Source: Bryobacterales bacterium
Lineage (GTDB): Bacteria; Acidobacteriota; Terriglobia; Bryobacterales; UBA6623
Direction: 5' to 3'
Length of the DNA stretch: 64,000 bases
NCBI GenBank assembly: GCA_026713545.1
Contig: JAPOOG010000013.1
Span: 1 to 64,000, forward strand
Below are positions 31,908 through 43,743 of the stretch, piece after piece (positions within the stretch are counted from its first letter, which is position 1; every line of letters starts with the position of its first letter). The notes under the pieces were generated by a model. That model was not told the origin of the DNA, did no database searches, and saw only the letters and a list, made by a program, of their open reading frames with translations. The position numbers and the translations under genes were made by a program.

Positions 31908-32765
31908 TCAAGATGGCGACGCGCTTTTCCGCCTACTGGTTTCACCAGCCTCGTACGGGCGCGTGAGCAGAGAGGAGACGTTTGTGGTGAGCGGGCGATA
32001 TCCCGCGTGCACGGAGGCTCGAATCGCAGCTTCCTGGACAAGGCTGGCATAGTGCGGCCGGTTGTCCTCGGCCAGCACACTTGTGGGAGCACTCATGCTG
32101 ATGGCGGCGACTACTTGTCCCTTGTGATCGCGAATCGCAGCGGCGAGGCAACGCAACCCGCGTACCCCTTCCTCGTCGTCAAGGGCGTACCCTTGGTCGC
32201 GAATCGTCTCCAGTTCGCGACGCATGGCATCCAGAGATGTGATCGTCTTGTCGGTGTAGCGCTCGACCTCTTTGGAGAAAATGCGCTCCAGGTCTTCAGG
32301 GCTTCGGTAAGCCAGCATGACCTTGCCGAGAGCGGTAGCATGTACCGCCCGCCGCTCCCCTGTGTTGGCGAAGAGATACAAAGAGCTGGGATGACCGACG
32401 GTGTGGAGGTAAAGCACCGCGTCGTTGTCCCAGAGCCCAAGGTGGACCATGCCTTCGGTCTTCCCGGCGAGGTCCTGCATGACGGGAAATGAAGCACGAT
32501 ACACACGCGAATGCCGGAGAAAACCTGTGCCCACCCACAGCGCCTTGCCCGTCAGCCGGTAGCGCCTCGAGTCCCCGTCTTGCTCAACGAAGCCCGCCTC
32601 CATCAGGGTCGCAACCAATCGATGAGTCGATGTTTTGGGAGCGTCAAGGCTGGCGCTAATCTCGAAGAGGCCGAACTCGAAGGGCTCTCGCGCAAGTAGT
32701 TCGAGCACCGACAGACACTTTATTGTCGAAGCCATCGTTCCCCGCCGTTTCTCCGTTGGCTTCAT
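31908..32765 (-). CDS. IclR-family transcriptional regulator
   Basis: The protein (285 residues from the ATG at 32765, MKPTEKRRG) has an N-terminal winged helix, IKCLSVLELLAREPFEFGLF then ISASLDAPKTSTHRLVATLM. The C-terminal ligand domain includes MVHLGLWDNDAVLYLHTVG, AVHATALGKVMLAY, YALDDEEGVRGLRCLAAAI and VVAAISMSAPTSVL, all typical. It is transcribed away from the TonB receptor gene, and its likely operators lie in the shared 190-bp region. It probably senses a sugar-acid breakdown product and controls the island genes (inference). Confidence 0.92.
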   Translation of the reverse strand: MKPTEKRRGTMASTIKCLSVLELLAREPFEFGLFEISASLDAPKTSTHRLVATLMEAGFVEQDGDSRRYRLTGKALWVGTGFLRHSRVYRASFPVMQDLAGKTEGMVHLGLWDNDAVLYLHTVGHPSSLYLFANTGERRAVHATALGKVMLAYRSPEDLERIFSKEVERYTDKTITSLDAMRRELETIRDQGYALDDEEGVRGLRCLAAAIRDHKGQVVAAISMSAPTSVLAEDNRPHYASLVQEAAIRASVHAGYRPLTTNVSSLLTRPYEAGETSRRKSASPS

Positions 32766-32844
32766 GTTCTGACTCTTCGTCTCGATGCAGTGCCCCGAGT
32801 GCCTTGTCCACACACTCCTCCACTATACAACACGAAATCGGGAA

Positions 32845-32925: not shown

Positions 32926-32940
32926 TTCCGCATTGTGGAA
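32926..32940. promoter_or_regulatory. Likely IclR operator downstream of the -10 box
   Basis: TTCCGCATTGTGGAA is a near-palindrome (12 of 15 positions) with TTCC/GGAA arms like known IclR-family boxes. It overlaps the early transcribed region, so binding would block transcription of the receptor operon. Confidence 0.55.
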
Positions 32941-32955
32941 CATGGGGGGGTTTTC

Positions 32956-35900
32956 ATGAAGCTAGTTGCTACTTTGCTTGCTGTTTTTGCAATGGCCCTG
33001 GCGCCTGCCAGACTCATGGCTCAGGGCACAACAACCATATCCGGAGTCGTCACGGATGCATCCGGAGGCTTGGTCGTAGGCGCCAATGTGATGGTGACTA
33101 ACGTTCTTACGAACGCCGAACGGTCGGCAACGACAAACGAGTCGGGCTTCTATACCGTAGGATCACTGCAGCCCGGCGAATATACGGTTGATGTTCAGGC
33201 GCCGGGCTTCCAAAGGTTCACTCAGTCCGGCGTTACCGTCGAAGTCGATCGCCGTATTCGGGTCGACGCGTCCCTCCAAGTGGGTCAAGTCACCGAGGTA
33301 GTCGAGGTCAGCGCTGAGGGCGTCACGGTCAACACCCAGGACGCCGTCATTAAAGAGGTGGTCGATCAAAGAAGAGTCGTCGACCTCCCGTTGAACGGCA
33401 GGTCTCCGCTGCAACTGATGTTGCTGGTGCCTGGTGTCCATGCCGTGGAGGGTTCCGGCAGCGCGGGCATTGGAACCTCGTTTACTCCTTCCGGCCAGCA
33501 ATTCATTTCATCCAGCGGCAGCCGGGGTAATGAAATCAACTTTGTCTTGGATGGTGGTTACAACCAGGATGACTATCGCAACCTGTCGAATGCCTTCCCC
33601 AACCCGGACTTCCTGCAAGAGTTCAGCCTGCAGACCAACAGCTTTAGCGCCGAACACGGTCGCTTCTCCGGAGGTGTGGCCAACGCGGTCACGAAGTCGG
33701 GCACGAACGAGTTCCATGGGACCCTGTTTGAGTTCATTCGCAACAACAAATTGAACGCCATTAATTTTTTCGCCCCCCAGGACGACGGGCTGAAACGAAA
33801 TCAATGGGGTGGAACGATCGGTGGGCCGGTCTTGCTTCCCAAGTACAATGGCCGCGACAGAACCTTCTTTTTCTTCGGATATCAGGGCACCAAGATCCGA
33901 CAACGTCCCACCACGTCCACGGCGATCGTTCCCACGGCTCAGCAAAGAACCGGAGACTTTAGTGACTTTTTCGACAGTCGAGGCAACTTGATCCAACTCC
34001 ACGATCCGGACACGCTCGTTCCCTATGCGAACAACATCATCCCTTCCAGCCGGATCGACCCGGTGGTCCCCAAAATGCTGGAGTGGATTCCGGTTGCGCA
34101 GGATCCGGACGGAACGACTCGTTTTCCGAGGCAGACCATTTTCGACGGGTACGAGATCCAGGCTCGCGTGGATCACAACATCAGCGATCGTGACCGTTTG
34201 TTTGTGCGCATCTTTCGCCATAAGAACACACGGCCGAATACCGGCGTCACAGGCAACATCTTGAGCTTCAGCACGGCTCAGCTCGACCGCTCTTTTAATG
34301 GCCGGATCCAGTACGAACGCACAGTGAGTCCGACCACACTGTTCACGAGTGGCTTTACCTTCAATCGCTCTTTTGGCCTACGGCAAGGGACAACGCCGTT
34401 CACCTTCCAGGACATCGGGGTCAACGCTCCCCCGGCCGGCGCCAGCGACGACATGAGGCTCGACGTGATCGGTTTCTTCCGGGTCATTCTTTTCGGCGAT
34501 ACGCCCCTGGTGCGCAATTCTTTTCAGTACCAGGCTTCGTTCGGCAAGATGATGGGAAGGCATAACCTGCGCATGGGTTTCGAAGCCAACCGGCGGCAGT
34601 TCAATATTCCCATTGTCAATGTCGGATTCCATGGGCTGTTTGATTTTAGCCGCGCTTTCACCGGCAGCCGTTTGAGCGATTTCGTTCTGGGCCGTCCGTC
34701 TCGATTCAACCAGTCAAGTGGTTTTCAGGTTGCATTGCGGTCGACCGACTGGATCGGCTGGGTCTCGGACGAAATCAAATTGAATCCGCGACTGACGATG
34801 ACCCTGGGCCTGCGATTCGAACCCTTCTTGACCTGGAAGGACACCTGGCGTCCTGAACTACCCCAGGTAGCGGCGTTCATCCCCGGCCAGCAGAGCCGGG
34901 TATTTCCAAACATCGGTGAAGGAATTAACTTCTTTGGCGATCCAGGGGTGTCCGACCGTTTAGTGCCCTCGGACTGGTCGAAATTCTCTCCGCGCTTTGG
35001 TCTGAGTTTTGATCCGTTCGGGGACGGGAGGATGGCGATTCGGGCCGGCTACGGCATTTTCCGAATGAACTACCCGGCTTCCAGCACCCAGAATATCGGT
35101 GCATCCATTCCGGCATTCAACGCAACGGTCAATATCGAAGATCCTGCGAGTTTTTCCGACCCGTTCCAAGGGCAGCCGCCACCGCCGTGGCCGGCCAAGA
35201 TCGTGCCGTTCGACAACGAATTCCGTGGCATTTTTCGGTCGCGTGTAGTCCAGAACACCATGGAACAGCCCTACACGCAACAGTGGAATCTCACGATCGA
35301 ACGACAACTGCCTGGCGATTGGCTGGGGGCGGTTTCTTATCAGGGTTCCAAAGGAACCAAACTGTTCGGCAATTACGAACCCAACTACGCCGCGTATATC
35401 CCCGGTGAGTCGACCAAGCGTAACATTCAACAGCGGCGCCTGTTCCCCCATCTTGGGCAGATTCAAGAGTGGTGTAGCTGCGGCTTCAGTCAGTATCATG
35501 CGTTGGTATTGAGTGGTTCCAAGCGCTTCTCGAGGAATTACAGTGTTTTGGCGTCCTACACCTTCTCGAAGCTGATGGATCACGGTTCTGCGACCGTGAG
35601 TTCGGGAGGCGGAGCGTTTTCCGATCCCAACGACTGGGCTCGAGACCGGGGTGTAGCGGACTTTCATCACAAACACGTCGCCAGCATTTCATATGTATGG
35701 GACTTGCCGCGGTTGAGCCGGCAAAACCCGGTCGTCCGAGCGGTCTTCGGAAACTGGCAGAACAACGGAATCGTGCGGCTGCAAAGCGGTGAGTTCGCCA
35801 GGGTAGCCAGCAGCTTCGCGAACTCACTGACGGGTATCGGCCGTGACCGAGCCGACGTGGTCGGAGAGTGGCGAATGTCGTCGGACAGGCCGCGGGGCGA

Positions 35901-36198
35901 GAAGATTCGGGAATGGTTTAACACGGCAGCATTTGTCCGCAATGCCGAGGGCACTTTCGGTACCTCCGGCCGGAACATACTCGAGACCCCGGGATTTGCC
36001 AACGTTGATTTCTCTTTGTTCAAGAACATTCCGATTCGAGAGAGTGTGCGAGTGCAGTTCCGATCGGAGTTCTTCAACATTCTTAACCGCGTCAATTTCA
36101 GCCGGCCGAACACGAATGTGGACTCCGGCGCCTTCGGCAGAATCACGAGCGCGCGGGCTCCGCGGATTATCCAGTTCGCCCTGAAGTTGATTTTCTAG
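32956..36198 (+). CDS. TonB-dependent receptor, acidobacterial Oar-like type
   Basis: I chose the ATG at 32956, preceded by a G7 Shine-Dalgarno tract; it begins with the signal peptide KLVATLLAVFAMALAPARLMAQ. The 1080-residue protein then has a carboxypeptidase-regulatory-like beta domain (TTTISGVVTDASGGLVVGAN, about residues 24-105) and a plug domain (VVDLPLNGRSPLQLMLLVPG, SSGSRGNEINFVLDGGYNQD). A long barrel follows, with FSGGVANAVTKSGTNEFHGTL, ending in FALKLIF with the terminal aromatic. Such receptors import large glycans or oligosaccharides. It heads the island's putative operon. Confidence 0.95.
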   Translation: MKLVATLLAVFAMALAPARLMAQGTTTISGVVTDASGGLVVGANVMVTNVLTNAERSATTNESGFYTVGSLQPGEYTVDVQAPGFQRFTQSGVTVEVDRRIRVDASLQVGQVTEVVEVSAEGVTVNTQDAVIKEVVDQRRVVDLPLNGRSPLQLMLLVPGVHAVEGSGSAGIGTSFTPSGQQFISSSGSRGNEINFVLDGGYNQDDYRNLSNAFPNPDFLQEFSLQTNSFSAEHGRFSGGVANAVTKSGTNEFHGTLFEFIRNNKLNAINFFAPQDDGLKRNQWGGTIGGPVLLPKYNGRDRTFFFFGYQGTKIRQRPTTSTAIVPTAQQRTGDFSDFFDSRGNLIQLHDPDTLVPYANNIIPSSRIDPVVPKMLEWIPVAQDPDGTTRFPRQTIFDGYEIQARVDHNISDRDRLFVRIFRHKNTRPNTGVTGNILSFSTAQLDRSFNGRIQYERTVSPTTLFTSGFTFNRSFGLRQGTTPFTFQDIGVNAPPAGASDDMRLDVIGFFRVILFGDTPLVRNSFQYQASFGKMMGRHNLRMGFEANRRQFNIPIVNVGFHGLFDFSRAFTGSRLSDFVLGRPSRFNQSSGFQVALRSTDWIGWVSDEIKLNPRLTMTLGLRFEPFLTWKDTWRPELPQVAAFIPGQQSRVFPNIGEGINFFGDPGVSDRLVPSDWSKFSPRFGLSFDPFGDGRMAIRAGYGIFRMNYPASSTQNIGASIPAFNATVNIEDPASFSDPFQGQPPPPWPAKIVPFDNEFRGIFRSRVVQNTMEQPYTQQWNLTIERQLPGDWLGAVSYQGSKGTKLFGNYEPNYAAYIPGESTKRNIQQRRLFPHLGQIQEWCSCGFSQYHALVLSGSKRFSRNYSVLASYTFSKLMDHGSATVSSGGGAFSDPNDWARDRGVADFHHKHVASISYVWDLPRLSRQNPVVRAVFGNWQNNGIVRLQSGEFARVASSFANSLTGIGRDRADVVGEWRMSSDRPRGEKIREWFNTAAFVRNAEGTFGTSGRNILETPGFANVDFSLFKNIPIRESVRVQFRSEFFNILNRVNFSRPNTNVDSGAFGRITSARAPRIIQFALKLIF

Positions 36199-36359: not shown

Positions 36360-38273
36360 ATGAAGAGTCGGTTTCGCCCGACGAAGGGTATCGGAGTTGC
36401 AGCCTCAGTTCTGATGACAATCACGCCGGCTCTCGGCCAGGGCAACATTGATCCCCGGCCTGTGGGAGTTGCCGAGGTCCGACTCGCAAACCCGCTCTCG
36501 CCGCCGTCGTGGGCCTTGGCGGAGCGAGCCTTGATTCGCGCCAATGAAGAAGCGGTGAAGGCGTTTGCCGATAAGTACGTCCTGGCGAACGGCTACTTGC
36601 GTCATCAGCCGCATTGGGGCGGAAGCGACGGGCCCGACGACGTAATGGAGAACTTCTGGAACTGGCCGTTGCTCTACACGCTGGGAGGGAAGCCGGAGGT
36701 TCTCAGGCTGTACCGAAAGATTTGGGAAGGCCACATTCGTCAGTACAGCACCGAAGGCATGTTACGTCGCGAGTTTATAACGGCCTTTGACTGGGAGCAC
36801 AATTCGGAACACTACGGCGGATTCATCAACGAAGGCTTGGCGGATCCTACGGACCGCAAGTTCCAGCAGCGCGCAATCCGCTTTGCGGGGTTCTACACAG
36901 GAGAAGATGCAAGCGCCAGGAACTACGATCCCGTCCACAAGGTCATTCGCAGTGTATTGAACGGCAGCCGAGGCCCAAAGCTTGAAGCAGAAGCCGCCTA
37001 TTGGTACGACAAATCGGTTTCGCGGGAAGATTTCTTTGGTGCATGGACGAACGTCAAAGGGGACATTCCCATGAACCTTCACGCCACGAGCTTGGTGGCG
37101 AATGCTTACTTGTTGACAGGCGAACGCAAATACAAAGAATGGTTGATTGAATACGTTGGCGCGTGGGTTGACCGAACGAAGGCCAATGGCGGCAGGATTC
37201 CCGGCAACATCGGCCTGACGGGAAAAGTAGGCGAACACTGGGATGGCAAATGGTGGGCCGGCATCATGGGCTGGGACTGGCCCTTCGGCGGGTATCAGTT
37301 GATGGAACGGGGTCCCCGCCAAGCGGCGTTGAATGCTTTCCTGATCACGGGCGGAGACGATCGCTTTCTTGACACCCTCCGAGTGCAGATGGAGATCCTG
37401 CTCCGCAACCGCCTCAAGCACGGTAACGGCCATATGCTGCCACCCGACCGCTATAACGACGAGAAGGGCTGGTACAGCCCCATGTGGAGCGTGAACTACG
37501 CACGCGCGCTTGCCGACATCTACCTTCATTCATTCAAGACCGAAGATTGGGAAAAAATCGAAGAAACCGAAAGTCTCCCCTTCACGCACGACGAAGGAGC
37601 ACAAAAAAACGACTATTCCCACGAATATGAGTGGCTGGCCTATCTGAAAGGCCGGTATCCGGGGTACCCCGACCGAATTCTGCGCTTGAATTTGGAACGC
37701 ATCCGGCGCCACGTCAAGCGGGTCCGAGCGGACAGCTCCGATCCCGCAACGTGGCGTTCCGACCAGGCGCACGACTTTTTACCGCTGGGGATGGAAGGTT
37801 TGCTGCAGCTCATGATGGGGACGGCCACCCCTCACTGGGGCTCCGGCCTCACCTTCGGTGAACTGCGCTATTTCGACCCGCGGAATGGCAGAGCAGGAAT
37901 GCCCGAAGATGTCGCGGCGCTAGTGGAGAAGATCGAGCCTGATCATCTTGCCCTGGTTCTGGTCAATACCCACCAAACCGAGCCGCGGGAAGTCCTTGTG
38001 CAGGCAGGCGCATATGGCCAGCATACATTCACTCAAGTGAAGTTTCCGGAGACGGCAGCCGAACCGCCGCCGCTGGTTGACAACAAAGGGCGCATCGAGT
38101 CTTTCCGAACGGATCCAGGGCAAGCGGCGGAGGCGGTCGAAGTGAACCGTCATTTTTTCCGGGTGTTGCTGGAACCGGGCTGCGGTGGGCGACTGGAATT
38201 AGGGTTGCAGCGGCATGCCCGTCGGCCGAGTCTTGCATTTCCTTGGCATGGGGAGTCCGTGCCGCTCCGTTAG
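36360..38273 (+). CDS. Secreted protein of unknown function, alpha/alpha-toroid-like carbohydrate-active candidate
   Basis: The 637-residue protein has a weak signal peptide (about residues 9-26, GVAASVLMTITPALGQ) and GAGGAAAG-like SD GAGGAAAG upstream. The middle is Trp/His/Tyr-rich and looks helical: MENFWNWPLLYTLGGKPEVL, FITAFDWEHNSEHYGGFINE, DIPMNLHATSLVANAYLLTG, EHWDGKWWAGIMGWDWPFGG and WYSPMWSVNYARALADIYLH. Alternating helices with conserved His/Trp/Tyr suggest an (alpha/alpha) toroid as in polysaccharide lyases and some glycosidases; the end looks beta-rich. I do not recognise a family. Its place behind the receptor supports a glycan-degrading role (inference). Confidence 0.6.
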   Translation: MKSRFRPTKGIGVAASVLMTITPALGQGNIDPRPVGVAEVRLANPLSPPSWALAERALIRANEEAVKAFADKYVLANGYLRHQPHWGGSDGPDDVMENFWNWPLLYTLGGKPEVLRLYRKIWEGHIRQYSTEGMLRREFITAFDWEHNSEHYGGFINEGLADPTDRKFQQRAIRFAGFYTGEDASARNYDPVHKVIRSVLNGSRGPKLEAEAAYWYDKSVSREDFFGAWTNVKGDIPMNLHATSLVANAYLLTGERKYKEWLIEYVGAWVDRTKANGGRIPGNIGLTGKVGEHWDGKWWAGIMGWDWPFGGYQLMERGPRQAALNAFLITGGDDRFLDTLRVQMEILLRNRLKHGNGHMLPPDRYNDEKGWYSPMWSVNYARALADIYLHSFKTEDWEKIEETESLPFTHDEGAQKNDYSHEYEWLAYLKGRYPGYPDRILRLNLERIRRHVKRVRADSSDPATWRSDQAHDFLPLGMEGLLQLMMGTATPHWGSGLTFGELRYFDPRNGRAGMPEDVAALVEKIEPDHLALVLVNTHQTEPREVLVQAGAYGQHTFTQVKFPETAAEPPPLVDNKGRIESFRTDPGQAAEAVEVNRHFFRVLLEPGCGGRLELGLQRHARRPSLAFPWHGESVPLR

Positions 38274-38513
38274 CAGTCCGTGGTGAAACTCCGCGTAGCA
38301 CCGAGAGCGGCGAGGCGCCCGGCTGACAAGGCGCGACGAGGGAGCATATTGGACATCTTCGACCGAGGAGCAACGCAGTTCAGCCGGGATGCATCGCTGC
38401 TTGAATGCAGCGGGGGTTTTGCCACGGACTGTCAGGTCCTGGAGGGAATCTTGCAGAAGTCACGGAAACCACGACGTACTTGGTGGGAGGTTTTGAGGGC
38501 AACAAGCTTCTCG

Positions 38514-40400
38514 ATGCTGCGGATCGTCTCGTCAGCCATCCTGGCGTCGAGCGTGTTGTGGGGACAGACCCTGCCGGTCGCGGAGTCGATCCACTACGTC
38601 CGGCCCGGTGACAATCCACAGGCGGTGCTGGCCGCGGCGTCGCCGGGCGGCAAGCTCGTCTTCCTGCCGGGAATGCATGAGCATCCATTGCGCAGGCATC
38701 GGTCGCTGCTCTATGTGGACAAGCCGATCGACATCGAGTTGATGGAAGGCGCCGTTCTCAGGCTCGCTGACCATCAGAGCAAACTCGAGTATGAGCCGGA
38801 GCTGACCATCGATCACGGCGCGGTCAAGAAGCTCGACGACTTCTCTTTTGGCGGTCGCTACGACGGAGGAATCGGTCCCGTCATCTACACCATCCGGATC
38901 GACTGCGAGGGCGCCGGAGGACAGCCCGACACGTTCTCGTGGATCACCGGCTGGGGCCCGGGCGCCACACAGGGCGCCCCCACCGCGGGCGTCCCGATTA
39001 CCGGCGATTGGCAGCCGCTGAGCAACGGCGTTCAGATCAAGTTCGAATCACGCAGGGGACACAACGAGGGGAGCTTCTGGGCGCTCTCCTACGACGGCCC
39101 GGAGTCCTACGGCATCCGCATCGGGCACGGTCTGCAGGAGGACTATATCGAGGATGTCCGGATCTTCGGGCGTGGCGCGATTGACCTTAACCAGGACAAC
39201 AACGTGCAGCCCTCGGAGTTGGTGAAGGACATTTCCGCTTGTGTCCTCATCCACGGTCGTGTGCGCAACGTCTCGGTCGAACAGATCACGATGACCAACA
39301 CGATGCGGTCGGTGATGGTCTACGGCGAGCACACGGGCAAGTTCCTGCGCGGTGGAGACACCGAGGGAGGCGAATCCTTCGACGCGGAGAACATCGCGAT
39401 CGCCGGCACGCGCACGATCAACCCGAAGGGCCGAGGATATCTGCTGGGCCACCCCTCCCACCGCGGACGTCTCAGCAAGGTGCGCTGCAACTACAACTAC
39501 ATGGAGACCTTGGCGACTTCTCTGGAACCGAACTTCAACCTGAGCCAGTACGAAGTCATCGGCAACGTGATCAAGAGCGGGGGACGGGCGATCCATTGCT
39601 GGCGCAAATCGGTGAACGGGATTATCAAGAACAACGTCCGCATCGATGACACGACCGGCAAGGAAGTTGTGATGGTGAACTCCCCTGGAGCATGGGGGGA
39701 TCCCGAGAACCTCACCATTCGCGACAACCGCAACCACCTGAGCGACGCACTGGGGCGCTGGGCAAGCGTGACGGCTGGACTCGATAATCGCGCGCTCGGC
39801 GCTTTATCGGTGGTTGGCGGCGGTCGCAGCAACACGGCGCAAGCCGAACTCGCAACGATCGTAGGGGGTGAAGGCAACCGCGCGGACGGACGCGCAGCCA
39901 CAGTGACAGGCGGCGAGGGGAATGAAGCAAACGCGCCCTACTCACGTGTTCATGGTGCCGGCGCCATGAGTCTGCGGCCCGCGGAGGACGTGCTTGCCGG
40001 CGGGGCCTTCGGGAGTCCTGGCGACGCGCAGGCGAGCCGTCTCGTCGCTAAGGGCTTGACCACGGACAATGTTCCGCGTGTACTTTTACTGGCCGCTGGA
40101 GCACCGATCCGGCTCCCCGAGAACACGAGCCTGAGCTATCGCATTCTGGTCGTTGCGAGAGACGACAACGGCCGGCAGCAATCCGCCTTTGAAGCCCTTG
40201 GCTTGGCGCGTAGCGATGCCACGGGCGACATCGAGCTGTTCGGCAACCGGACTTCCGTCATCCACAAGAGCGATGCCGCCATAGACTTCGATGTCGTTGC
40301 CAACTCGCAAGGACGGGCCCTGGAGCTGCAGGCCACGGGGCTAGCGGATACCGGAATGCGCTGGGTCGCTCAGGTGGATCTGGTCGAGGTTCGATTCTAG
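38514..40400 (+). CDS. Secreted beta-helix protein with YadA-like repeats and a phage-tail-fibre-like C-terminus
   Basis: The signal peptide is MLRIVSSAILASSVLWGQ (start uncertain: the frame is open from a GTG at 38280). A pectate-lyase-like right-handed beta-helix follows (about residues 30-420; for example NTMRSVMVYGEHTGKFLRGG, CNYNYMETLATSLEPNFNLS, YEVIGNVIKSGGRAIHCWRK). Next come head-type repeats of YadA/tail-fibre kind: GALSVVGGGRSNTAQAELAT, IVGGEGNRADGRAATVTGGE. The last roughly 140 residues (VPRVLLLAAGAPIRLPENTS, YRILVVARDDNGRQQSAFEA, GMRWVAQVDLVEVRF) resemble the end domain of phage tail fibres. Trimerisation is likely. The stop TAG overlaps the next GTG. Confidence 0.72.
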   Translation: MLRIVSSAILASSVLWGQTLPVAESIHYVRPGDNPQAVLAAASPGGKLVFLPGMHEHPLRRHRSLLYVDKPIDIELMEGAVLRLADHQSKLEYEPELTIDHGAVKKLDDFSFGGRYDGGIGPVIYTIRIDCEGAGGQPDTFSWITGWGPGATQGAPTAGVPITGDWQPLSNGVQIKFESRRGHNEGSFWALSYDGPESYGIRIGHGLQEDYIEDVRIFGRGAIDLNQDNNVQPSELVKDISACVLIHGRVRNVSVEQITMTNTMRSVMVYGEHTGKFLRGGDTEGGESFDAENIAIAGTRTINPKGRGYLLGHPSHRGRLSKVRCNYNYMETLATSLEPNFNLSQYEVIGNVIKSGGRAIHCWRKSVNGIIKNNVRIDDTTGKEVVMVNSPGAWGDPENLTIRDNRNHLSDALGRWASVTAGLDNRALGALSVVGGGRSNTAQAELATIVGGEGNRADGRAATVTGGEGNEANAPYSRVHGAGAMSLRPAEDVLAGGAFGSPGDAQASRLVAKGLTTDNVPRVLLLAAGAPIRLPENTSLSYRILVVARDDNGRQQSAFEALGLARSDATGDIELFGNRTSVIHKSDAAIDFDVVANSQGRALELQATGLADTGMRWVAQVDLVEVRF

Positions 40401-40933
40401 TGGCCGAGGCCATCAGTCGGAGGGACTTTCTCAGCGCAACGGCCGGAGCCACTGCCCTGCGTGGCACGCTGGGCCGCCCCAACATCGTCATGATTCTGGC
40501 CGATGACATGGGTTTTTTCGATCTCGGCTGCTACGGCAGCGAAATCGCCACGCTGAACTTGGACCGGCTTGCGGAGGGGGGCCTGCGGTTTACGCAGTTC
40601 TACAATGCTGCCCGCTACGCCCCGACGCGGGCGGCCCTGCTCACGGGGCGATACAACCATCAGGCGGGCATTGGGCACATGGTCCAAGATCACGGACTCC
40701 CGGCCTGCCGGGGACGTCTGAGCGCGAGGGCCGTTACTACCGCCGGAGCTCTGTGCCCCGCAGGTTACCAGACGTTCGCGGCCGGCAAGTGGCGCGTCGG
40801 CTCGCTTCGGGGACACTGGCCGCTTGACCGTGGCTTTGACCGCTTCTACCGTTGTCCTCTCGATTCGGACAACGACGTCGTGATGGATATGCTTGAGCCG
40901 CACAGACGAGGCGAAATGACCGGAGATCTTTGA
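40400..40933 (+). pseudogene. Sulfatase N-terminal fragment without the catalytic cysteine
   Basis: The 177 residues start with a Tat-like leader (SRRDFLSATAGATAL) and RPNIVMILADDMGFFDLGCY, the metal-binding start of type I sulfatases. The nucleophile motif C-x-P-[ST]-R reads NAARYAPTRAALLTG, so the cysteine converted to formylglycine is replaced by Tyr. About two thirds of the enzyme is missing after GEMTGDL. It overlaps the upstream gene (TAGTG) and is followed by the SDR gene 5 bp later. It is probably a relic. Confidence 0.85.
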
Positions 40934-41695: not shown

Positions 41696-42397
41696 GATAC
41701 CGCGTCTGACTTCCGCCTCCTCAAGTTCGCTGTTGACGTTCCTACACCTTGTCCGACCGACGAGTACAATCGTAGCCTGGCGGCTCGCGAGATCGAATTC
41801 ATGGCCAGTTTGATCGGAGCCGCGCGTGAAGCTGTCGGTGGGGAGGTCGACTTGGCCGTGGATTGTCACTGGCACTACGCAGTGGAGGCCGCCACTCGGC
41901 TTTGCCGCGCCCTAGAGCCGCTGAAACTGTTGTGGATTGAGGACCCTGTCCCGGCCGATGACGCCGTGCGGACCGGTGAAGTCCAGCGTCGTGTGGCAAC
42001 CGCTATCGCGACCGGCGAGAACCACTACTTTCGGCGAGACTTTGATCTGCTACTCGATGCGGCACGCCTCCGAATCATTGCACCCGATCCGCAGAAGGTC
42101 GGCATTTGGAGCGCCAAGAGAATCGCTGACTTGGCGGACGCACGCTACGCTAACCTTGCATTGCACAACAGCAGCGGTCCGATTGGCACGGTGGCGTCGG
42201 CCCATCTTGCAGCGTCGATCCCGAATAGCCTAGCGCTGGAATGGCACGCCGCGTCCGTCCCCTTCTTCGACGATGTACTCAAGACCGGCCCGCTGATCGA
42301 GAAGGGGCGCATTGCGATGAACGACCGTCCCGGCTGGAGCGTGGAATTTTATGAAGAGGTAGCGAATCGCTATCGCGACCATGGATTCTTCGAATGA
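41696..42397 (+). pseudogene. Enolase-superfamily (mandelate racemase-like) sugar-acid dehydratase, C-terminal part
   Basis: An open frame begins right after the SDR stop without a start codon: DTASDFRLLKFAVDVPTPCP, EYNRSLAAREIEFMASLIGA, then VDLAVDCHWHYAVEAATRLC with the metal Asp and LLWIEDPVPADD with the metal Glu. IATGENHYF holds the third metal ligand, and the catalytic HNSSGPIG segment and LALEWHA follow. The N-terminal capping domain and the first barrel strands are missing. An ATG at 41801 could start a 198-residue product, but a working enzyme is unlikely. Confidence 0.85.
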
Positions 42398-43743
42398 GAT
42401 GGAATCGCCGTACCTTTCTCGCAGTTGCCGCCGCTCTTCCGCTGGCGCCGCGGAAGTCAGGTGTGCCGAACATCCTTTTTCTCATCTCCGACGACCACAG
42501 CGCCGTGGACCTGGGCTGCTACGGGGCCGGCGGTCTCGGCACTCCGCGGCTTGACCGTCTCGCCGCCGAGGGCATGCGCTTCACTCGCGCCTACGCCGCT
42601 GCGCCGCAGTGCAGTCCAAGTCGCTCCTCTTACTATTCCGGCTGTTCGCCGCACACGATCGGCACTTCCCGGCAGGCGTCTTTCTACCCGCCTCTCGAGA
42701 GCAGCATTCTGGAGCCGCTTGGCGAAGCCGGCTACTTCACCGCGGCCTTCGGAAAGGTCCACCAAGGCGAAGACTTCGAGAGGCGATTCGATCTCGTTGA
42801 CAAAGACATCGATGGCTTTGAGACTTTGTTCGAACGGCTCCCGGACGGCAAGCTCTTCTTTGCCCAAATCGGCTACAGTGACCCGCACCGGCCGTACCCG
42901 TCTCCGGCTGCCAACCCGCCAACCCCTCCCGAGAATGTTCCAGTCCCTGCCTTCCTGCCCGATACGTCCGATGTTCGACAGGACTTTGCTTCTTACTGGG
43001 ACGAGATCCGTCGCATGGATGTGAACGTCGGACGCGTACTGGACACTCTTGAAAAACGCGGCCTTGCCGATACCACTCTCGTTATCTTCACTGGAGACCA
43101 TGGGTTCCCGTTCCCGCGCGGCAAGGGGACGCTTTACGAAAGCGGTATTCGGGTTCCGCTGATCGTGCGTTGGCCTGCCTTCGTGCGCGCTGGCAAGTCA
43201 AGTGAAGCTCTGGTTTCCGGGGTCGACCTGGCCGCGACCTGCCTCCACGCTGCTGGTCTGCCTATCGAACCCAAGATGCAGGGTCAAAGCCTGCTACCGA
43301 TCCTGACTGGCGAGCGCGAGTCCGTCCGCGAGGCTGTTTTCACCGAGCGCAACTGGCACAACCACAGCGATCCGCAACGCGCTGTTGTCACCCAGCGCTT
43401 CAAGCTGATCTACAACGGCCGGCCCGAGCAACCTTACCGTCCGACGTCCGACATCGCCGCCTCGCCGAGTTGGCTTTCGTTTCTAGAGGAAGACATTCGT
43501 GGACGGCTGGAACCGAACATCCGTCGGCTCCTGGCGCCATCCCGCCCCTTCATCGAGTTCTATGACCTACTGTCCGACCCGAACGAGTTTCACAACCTCG
43601 CCGAAGATCCTGACTACGTTGCAGAACGGATCCGCCACGAGATGCTATTGAGCGACTGGATGCACGAGACACTCGACTATTTACCGCCCTTGTACTACGG
43701 CTATCCTGCACGTAAGCATCCCGGGCGCAGGCTGACCGTCTAG
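42394..43743 (+). CDS. Type I sulfatase, Tat- or Sec-exported
   Basis: The 449-residue protein has a leader RWNRRTFLAVAAALPLAP with twin arginines. NILFLISDDHSAVDLGCYGA gives the first metal ligands, and the nucleophile motif is intact: APQCSPSRSSYYSG (C-S-P-S-R, to be converted to formylglycine). IFTGDHGFPFPRGKGTLYESGIRVP supplies further metal and sulfate ligands. EFYDLLSDPNEFHNLAEDP is the usual ending. It removes sulfate esters from a glycan of unknown identity. The start overlaps the preceding frame by 4 bp (ATGA). Confidence 0.93.
   Translation: MRWNRRTFLAVAAALPLAPRKSGVPNILFLISDDHSAVDLGCYGAGGLGTPRLDRLAAEGMRFTRAYAAAPQCSPSRSSYYSGCSPHTIGTSRQASFYPPLESSILEPLGEAGYFTAAFGKVHQGEDFERRFDLVDKDIDGFETLFERLPDGKLFFAQIGYSDPHRPYPSPAANPPTPPENVPVPAFLPDTSDVRQDFASYWDEIRRMDVNVGRVLDTLEKRGLADTTLVIFTGDHGFPFPRGKGTLYESGIRVPLIVRWPAFVRAGKSSEALVSGVDLAATCLHAAGLPIEPKMQGQSLLPILTGERESVREAVFTERNWHNHSDPQRAVVTQRFKLIYNGRPEQPYRPTSDIAASPSWLSFLEEDIRGRLEPNIRRLLAPSRPFIEFYDLLSDPNEFHNLAEDPDYVAERIRHEMLLSDWMHETLDYLPPLYYGYPARKHPGRRLTV

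Follow-up and report, generated by a model that had tools for sequence, protein, structure and literature searches.

An uncatalogued family of predicted toroid proteins from bacteria and archaea as a candidate for trimming acidic sugar fragments

The gene and its island

The window, i.e., the whole stretch of 64,000 nucleotides analysed from a Bryobacterales genome, carries a gene for a 637-aa protein that begins 161 bp past the end of an Oar-type TonB-dependent receptor gene (Table 1), in keeping with the position given by the original prediction. The reading frame is gene-like in its codon-position GC content (0.62/0.44/0.68), and homologues are present at two further loci, the nearest found being L009 in another Bryobacterales genome (78 % identity) and the second L010 (59 % identity). 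Comparison with the L009 homologue yields a dN of 0.147 and a dS of about 3.4, which is near saturation and points to strong purifying selection on the protein. Codon-position GC, the two homologues and the relation of dN to dS together argue that this is not a chance reading frame. The leader of the protein, MKSRFRPTKGIGVAASVLMTITPALGQG, is signal-peptide-like. Of the motifs quoted when the protein was first described, KWWAGIMGWDWPFGG is exact; the other reads FDWEHNSEHYGG and not WDWEHNSEHYGG, its first W being replaced by F.

Table 1. Features in and around the gene (window coordinates)
Feature	Position	Strand	Remarks
IclR-family regulator, divergent	31908..32813	-	KdgR 3.3e-52 (below model cut-off); BhcR better, 1.4e-54
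Oar-type TonB-dependent receptor	32935..36198	+	CarboxypepD_reg and OMP_b-brl_4; upstream partner; 86 % in L009
Family gene, 637 aa	36360..38273	+	ATG start; leader, predicted (alpha/alpha) toroid, C-terminal beta domain
Signal-peptide-like leader, residues about 1-27	36360..36440	+	Hydrophobicity screen; model pLDDT <50 at residues 1-35
Helical toroid domain (predicted), residues about 50-499	36507..37856	+	AlphaFold2 model; holds most invariant polar/aromatic residues
C-terminal beta domain (predicted), residues about 502-618	37863..38213	+	AlphaFold2 model
Downstream partner, 706 aa, no family match	38280..40400	+	Beta-helix-like by reading; 72 % homologue directly downstream in L009
Truncated S1 sulfatase remnant	40400-40933	+	Pfam positions 1-128 of 301; Y-A-P-T-R, Cys replaced
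Enolase-superfamily sugar-acid dehydratase, C-terminal half (gene remnant)	41801..42397	+	No N-terminal part found upstream
S1-type sulfatase	42394..43743	+	C-S-P-S-R motif

The order TonB receptor, family gene, 706-aa gene is kept in L009 (86, 78 and 72 % identity, respectively), where a KdgD-type aldolase gene follows about 6 kb downstream. Between the receptor gene and the homologue, L009 contains adjacent ORFs without a Pfam match (L009:7273-9103), which may represent one broken gene that is absent from the window. The 706-aa protein has no match in Pfam or PHROGs; there is a weak resemblance to a cyanophage tail fibre in its C-terminal third (residues 485-700) and, with an AlphaFold2 pLDDT of 32, it is beta-helix-like only by sequence reading. 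Further downstream, the first sulfatase frame is very likely inactive, since it is truncated and the Cys of its C-x-P-x-R motif is replaced, and no N-terminal part of the dehydratase was found upstream of 41801. The two remnants suggest that the island in the window has partly decayed.

A widespread family with a predicted toroid fold

The protein has no Pfam match at E values up to 1 and none among the NCBIfam or PHROGs models, nor was anything significant found among PDB sequences, either with the protein itself or with a profile of 32 family members. These 32 relatives are equally without a significant match in Pfam and NCBIfam, and the Pfam lyase models did not significantly match either the window protein or its relatives. 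No family relatives were found in phage records and viral contigs, and no description of the family in the literature, where several of the searches were aimed at narrower topics. Novelty at the family level is therefore supported relative to Pfam, NCBIfam, PHROGs and PDB sequences, for which the earlier statement that the protein fits no family holds.

Members are present in Acidobacteriota, haloarchaea, Actinomycetota, Chloroflexota, Gemmatimonadota and alphaproteobacteria, including Anaerolineae and Longimicrobiales. A phylum-wide draw recovered the family in 10 of 297 genomes (own genome included), and among close relatives it occurs in 21 of 31 genomes with one to eight matches each. In haloarchaea, alphaproteobacteria and actinobacteria it is also carried by plasmids (17), as a “hypothetical protein” wherever annotated; WP_012945796.1 is one of the haloarchaeal members. 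The genome of the window encodes four further paralogues, on contigs C113, C9, C5 and C168, in differing neighbourhoods; two of the four have a sulfatase within 8 kb (L046 and L047). A maximum-likelihood tree groups the window protein with the L009 and L010 proteins in a clade with full support, well separated from the other acidobacterial paralogues, and the haloarchaeal members form one clade. A genome of the same genus (G297) has four copies, which apparently correspond to the other four paralogues; the window copy has no counterpart there and thus looks accessory. Read from its leader, the window protein is a real, exported member of a widely spread, uncatalogued family.

An AlphaFold2 model built on five sequences (pTM 0.74, mean pLDDT 65.6) places helices at residues 50-499 and strands at 502-618, in line with the helical core and beta-rich end first described. 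Several loops (86-90, 135-150, 201-237 and 293-316) have a pLDDT below 50, and many of the invariant residues are located there. The best Foldseek matches are GH76 (E 7e-5) and GH127 (5e-4), followed by AGE epimerases and GH88, in a range that extends to about 1e-2, and VIA aligns the model with LanC, GH47, AGE, GH88 and GH76 toroids at Z scores of 13-14. Z scores of this size occur widely among helical toroids and therefore speak for the fold class and not for a family. No GH154 or PL entries figure in the VIA listing, an absence that carries no weight as evidence. Model and searches together point with moderate confidence to a six-hairpin (alpha/alpha) toroid, probably followed by a C-terminal beta domain, which bears out the toroid-plus-beta layout of the original prediction.

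The prominence of AGE-fold entries in both structural searches raises the question of whether the family might consist of epimerases or isomerases of sugars or sugar acids, akin to AGE or cellobiose 2-epimerase toroids. A cytoplasmic place of action, as seems to apply in haloarchaea (see below), would be compatible with this role. However, the window protein has an extra C-terminal beta domain and the family is exported in Gram-negatives, both of which are unusual for AGE enzymes, and we consider an epimerase very improbable.

Known enzyme families were also compared by local hhalign profile alignment, in which six unrelated families served as controls (P 0.27-0.82). GH127 (PF07944) gave a weak, collinear match over 304 columns (P 6e-4, probability 29 %), and the GH127/GH146 beta-L-arabinofuranosidases share with the window protein a toroid followed by beta domains and a similar overall length. 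GH127 enzymes use a cysteine nucleophile, and in GH127/GH146 the catalytic and zinc-binding cysteines lie in the catalytic domain, whereas the only cysteine of the window protein, C608, is in the beta domain. Despite the profile match, GH127 is excluded as the family because the toroid has no cysteines; the genome of the window also has no PF07944 match. The GH76 alpha-1,6-mannanases (PF03663), the best Foldseek match to the toroid, have in common with the family, by sequence alone, an Asp-Asp pair, catalytic and in the toroid cleft in GH76 and invariant here (D93-D94). However, the GH76 profile, made from three sequences only, shows no similarity to the family (P 0.2), PF03663 does not match the window protein over its cut-off, and the matched GH76 catalytic domains are about 340 aa long and have no C-terminal beta domain.

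The GH88/GH105 unsaturated uronyl hydrolases (PF07470) combine a toroid fold (VIA Z 13) with a role in uronate breakdown. Their profile match to the family is weak (P 0.011), the window protein has an extra beta domain, and PF07470 does not match it; one of the 32 members reaches an E value of 0.079, below membership. The GH154/DUF2264 beta-D-glucuronate dehydratases (PF10022; PDB 9o4u, 9nwf and 8oi4) were considered because of the uronate context; they process uronates in a role for which no backbone need be cut. BcGDH, initially filed under GH154, turned out to be a glucuronate dehydratase (PMC12269599), and DUF2264 was confirmed here to correspond to this family. The enzyme is about 400 aa long, compared with 637 aa for the window protein, and although GH154/DUF2264 occurs in Acidobacteriota, it was not found in the genome of the window. 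It is rejected as the family on account of this absence and of the missing profile match (no Pfam match; hhalign P 0.31 over 25 columns).

Neighbourhoods and place of action of the relatives

The family is strongly linked to uronate catabolism by its gene neighbourhoods. In 12 of the 12 annotated haloarchaeal plasmid loci, at least one pectin/uronate gene lies near the family gene. Counted by annotation text, these classes (pectate lyase, GH28, GH4, enolase-superfamily/mannonate dehydratase, KdgD-type aldolase and glucuronate isomerase) account for 37 of 204 haloarchaeal neighbours versus 2 of 175 background genes from 35-kb stretches elsewhere on six of these plasmids (Fisher P 7e-9, a value that overstates independence as the 12 loci are related). 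IclR regulators, enolase-superfamily dehydratases and SDR proteins recur both among the relatives and in the window, and KdgD-like aldolases among the relatives and in L009. In Asticcacaulis, kdgD, dgoD and genes for a small cupin and a TonB receptor are found close to the family gene.

A Pfam tally of the neighbours of the acidobacterial paralogues gave no consistent partner, and most of them have no clear carbohydrate neighbourhood, which speaks against the explanation favoured below. The same observation would fit a protein whose toroid is dead and which serves in binding or structure, or an enzyme with a non-carbohydrate substrate, and LanC-type proteins are also toroids that match at similar Z scores. 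Yet 35 residues are invariant over 48 members from bacteria and archaea, many of them polar residues of the predicted core domain, and the haloarchaeal members have uronate neighbourhoods, so that this explanation appears distinctly improbable.

A simple hydrophobicity screen detects leaders in most acidobacterial members and in Asticcacaulis, and none in haloarchaeal, actinobacterial and Anaerolineae members. The genes of the leaderless members are accompanied by genes for transporters and for cytoplasmic sugar-acid catabolism, and the leaderless proteins probably act in the cytoplasm on imported fragments. Substrates that have to be imported are small, which makes oligosaccharides likelier than polymer backbones.

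This bears directly on the proposal that the window protein is a secreted endo-acting enzyme and the prime candidate for cutting the backbone of the island polysaccharide. The leader, the site between TonB receptor and sulfatase genes and the toroid-plus-beta layout all agree with it. Mainly because so many relatives seem to work in the cytoplasm, however, we have shifted away from this function. Moreover, pectate lyases and GH28 enzymes in the haloarchaeal clusters are the likelier depolymerases, and the adjacent 706-aa protein is an equally plausible backbone-cleaving candidate in the window. The claim to prime candidacy is thus not sustained and backbone cleavage is rather improbable, whereas the more general suggestion of a carbohydrate enzyme gains from the neighbourhoods of the relatives.

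A possible exo-acting enzyme on uronic-acid oligosaccharides

Among the invariant residues, the polar and aromatic ones that lie in the toroid include W51, D93, D94, D144, H147, E150, Y179, N188, Y189, D235, N239, Y265, W269, W298, W305 and R341. The many acids among them favour hydrolysis. The invariant Tyr, His, Asn and Arg residues leave room for a lyase or dehydratase (Y179, Y189, Y265, H147, N188, N239 and R341), which would form a terminal unsaturated uronate for removal by GH88/GH105, as with GH154/DUF2264; the active-site set of BcGDH comprises E74, R78, N176, N177, W178, Y229, R285 and Y289. The uronate neighbourhoods of the relatives agree with such a reaction, GH88-type genes are present in the genome of the window and in five of the eight plasmids tested, and a dehydratase working in this way has been documented (PMC12269599). 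However, the family shows no profile similarity to DUF2264/GH154 and no GH88/GH105 gene adjoins a family gene in the annotated loci. In view of the invariant acids, which suit hydrolysis better, the lyase or dehydratase is unlikely, and an exo-acting enzyme on uronic-acid oligosaccharides is more likely to be a hydrolase.

The explanation we favour, and to which we give a little less than an even chance, is that the protein is a periplasmic toroid-plus-beta enzyme that exo-hydrolyses uronic-acid oligosaccharides. Short oligosaccharides containing uronic acids would enter via the neighbouring TonB receptor. In the periplasm, exo-hydrolysis would most likely free either the terminal uronic acid or its neighbouring sugar, with acid/base catalysis by invariant toroid acids and His, for which D93, D94, D144, H147, E150 and D235 are candidates. 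The freed sugar acids would then pass into an aldonate/uronate pathway (dehydratase, KdgD-type aldolase).

By extension, it is possible, if somewhat doubtful, that the whole family is a new carbohydrate-active one which removes uronic acids from oligosaccharides in bacteria and archaea, and which in haloarchaea links the action of pectate lyase/polygalacturonase to the sugar-acid pathway. Given its predicted toroid, a shape found in sugar-cutting enzymes, and the pectin and sugar-acid genes beside its relatives, the window protein is a good candidate for a novel enzyme by which acidic sugar fragments are trimmed. If this is true, an enzyme family without a Pfam, NCBIfam or PDB entry recurs in a single acidobacterial family, whose genomes hold one to eight copies, and also on pectin-degrading plasmids of haloarchaea. 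Its assignment would explain many of the “hypothetical proteins” in sugar-acid clusters and would directly test how haloarchaea complete the breakdown of pectin.
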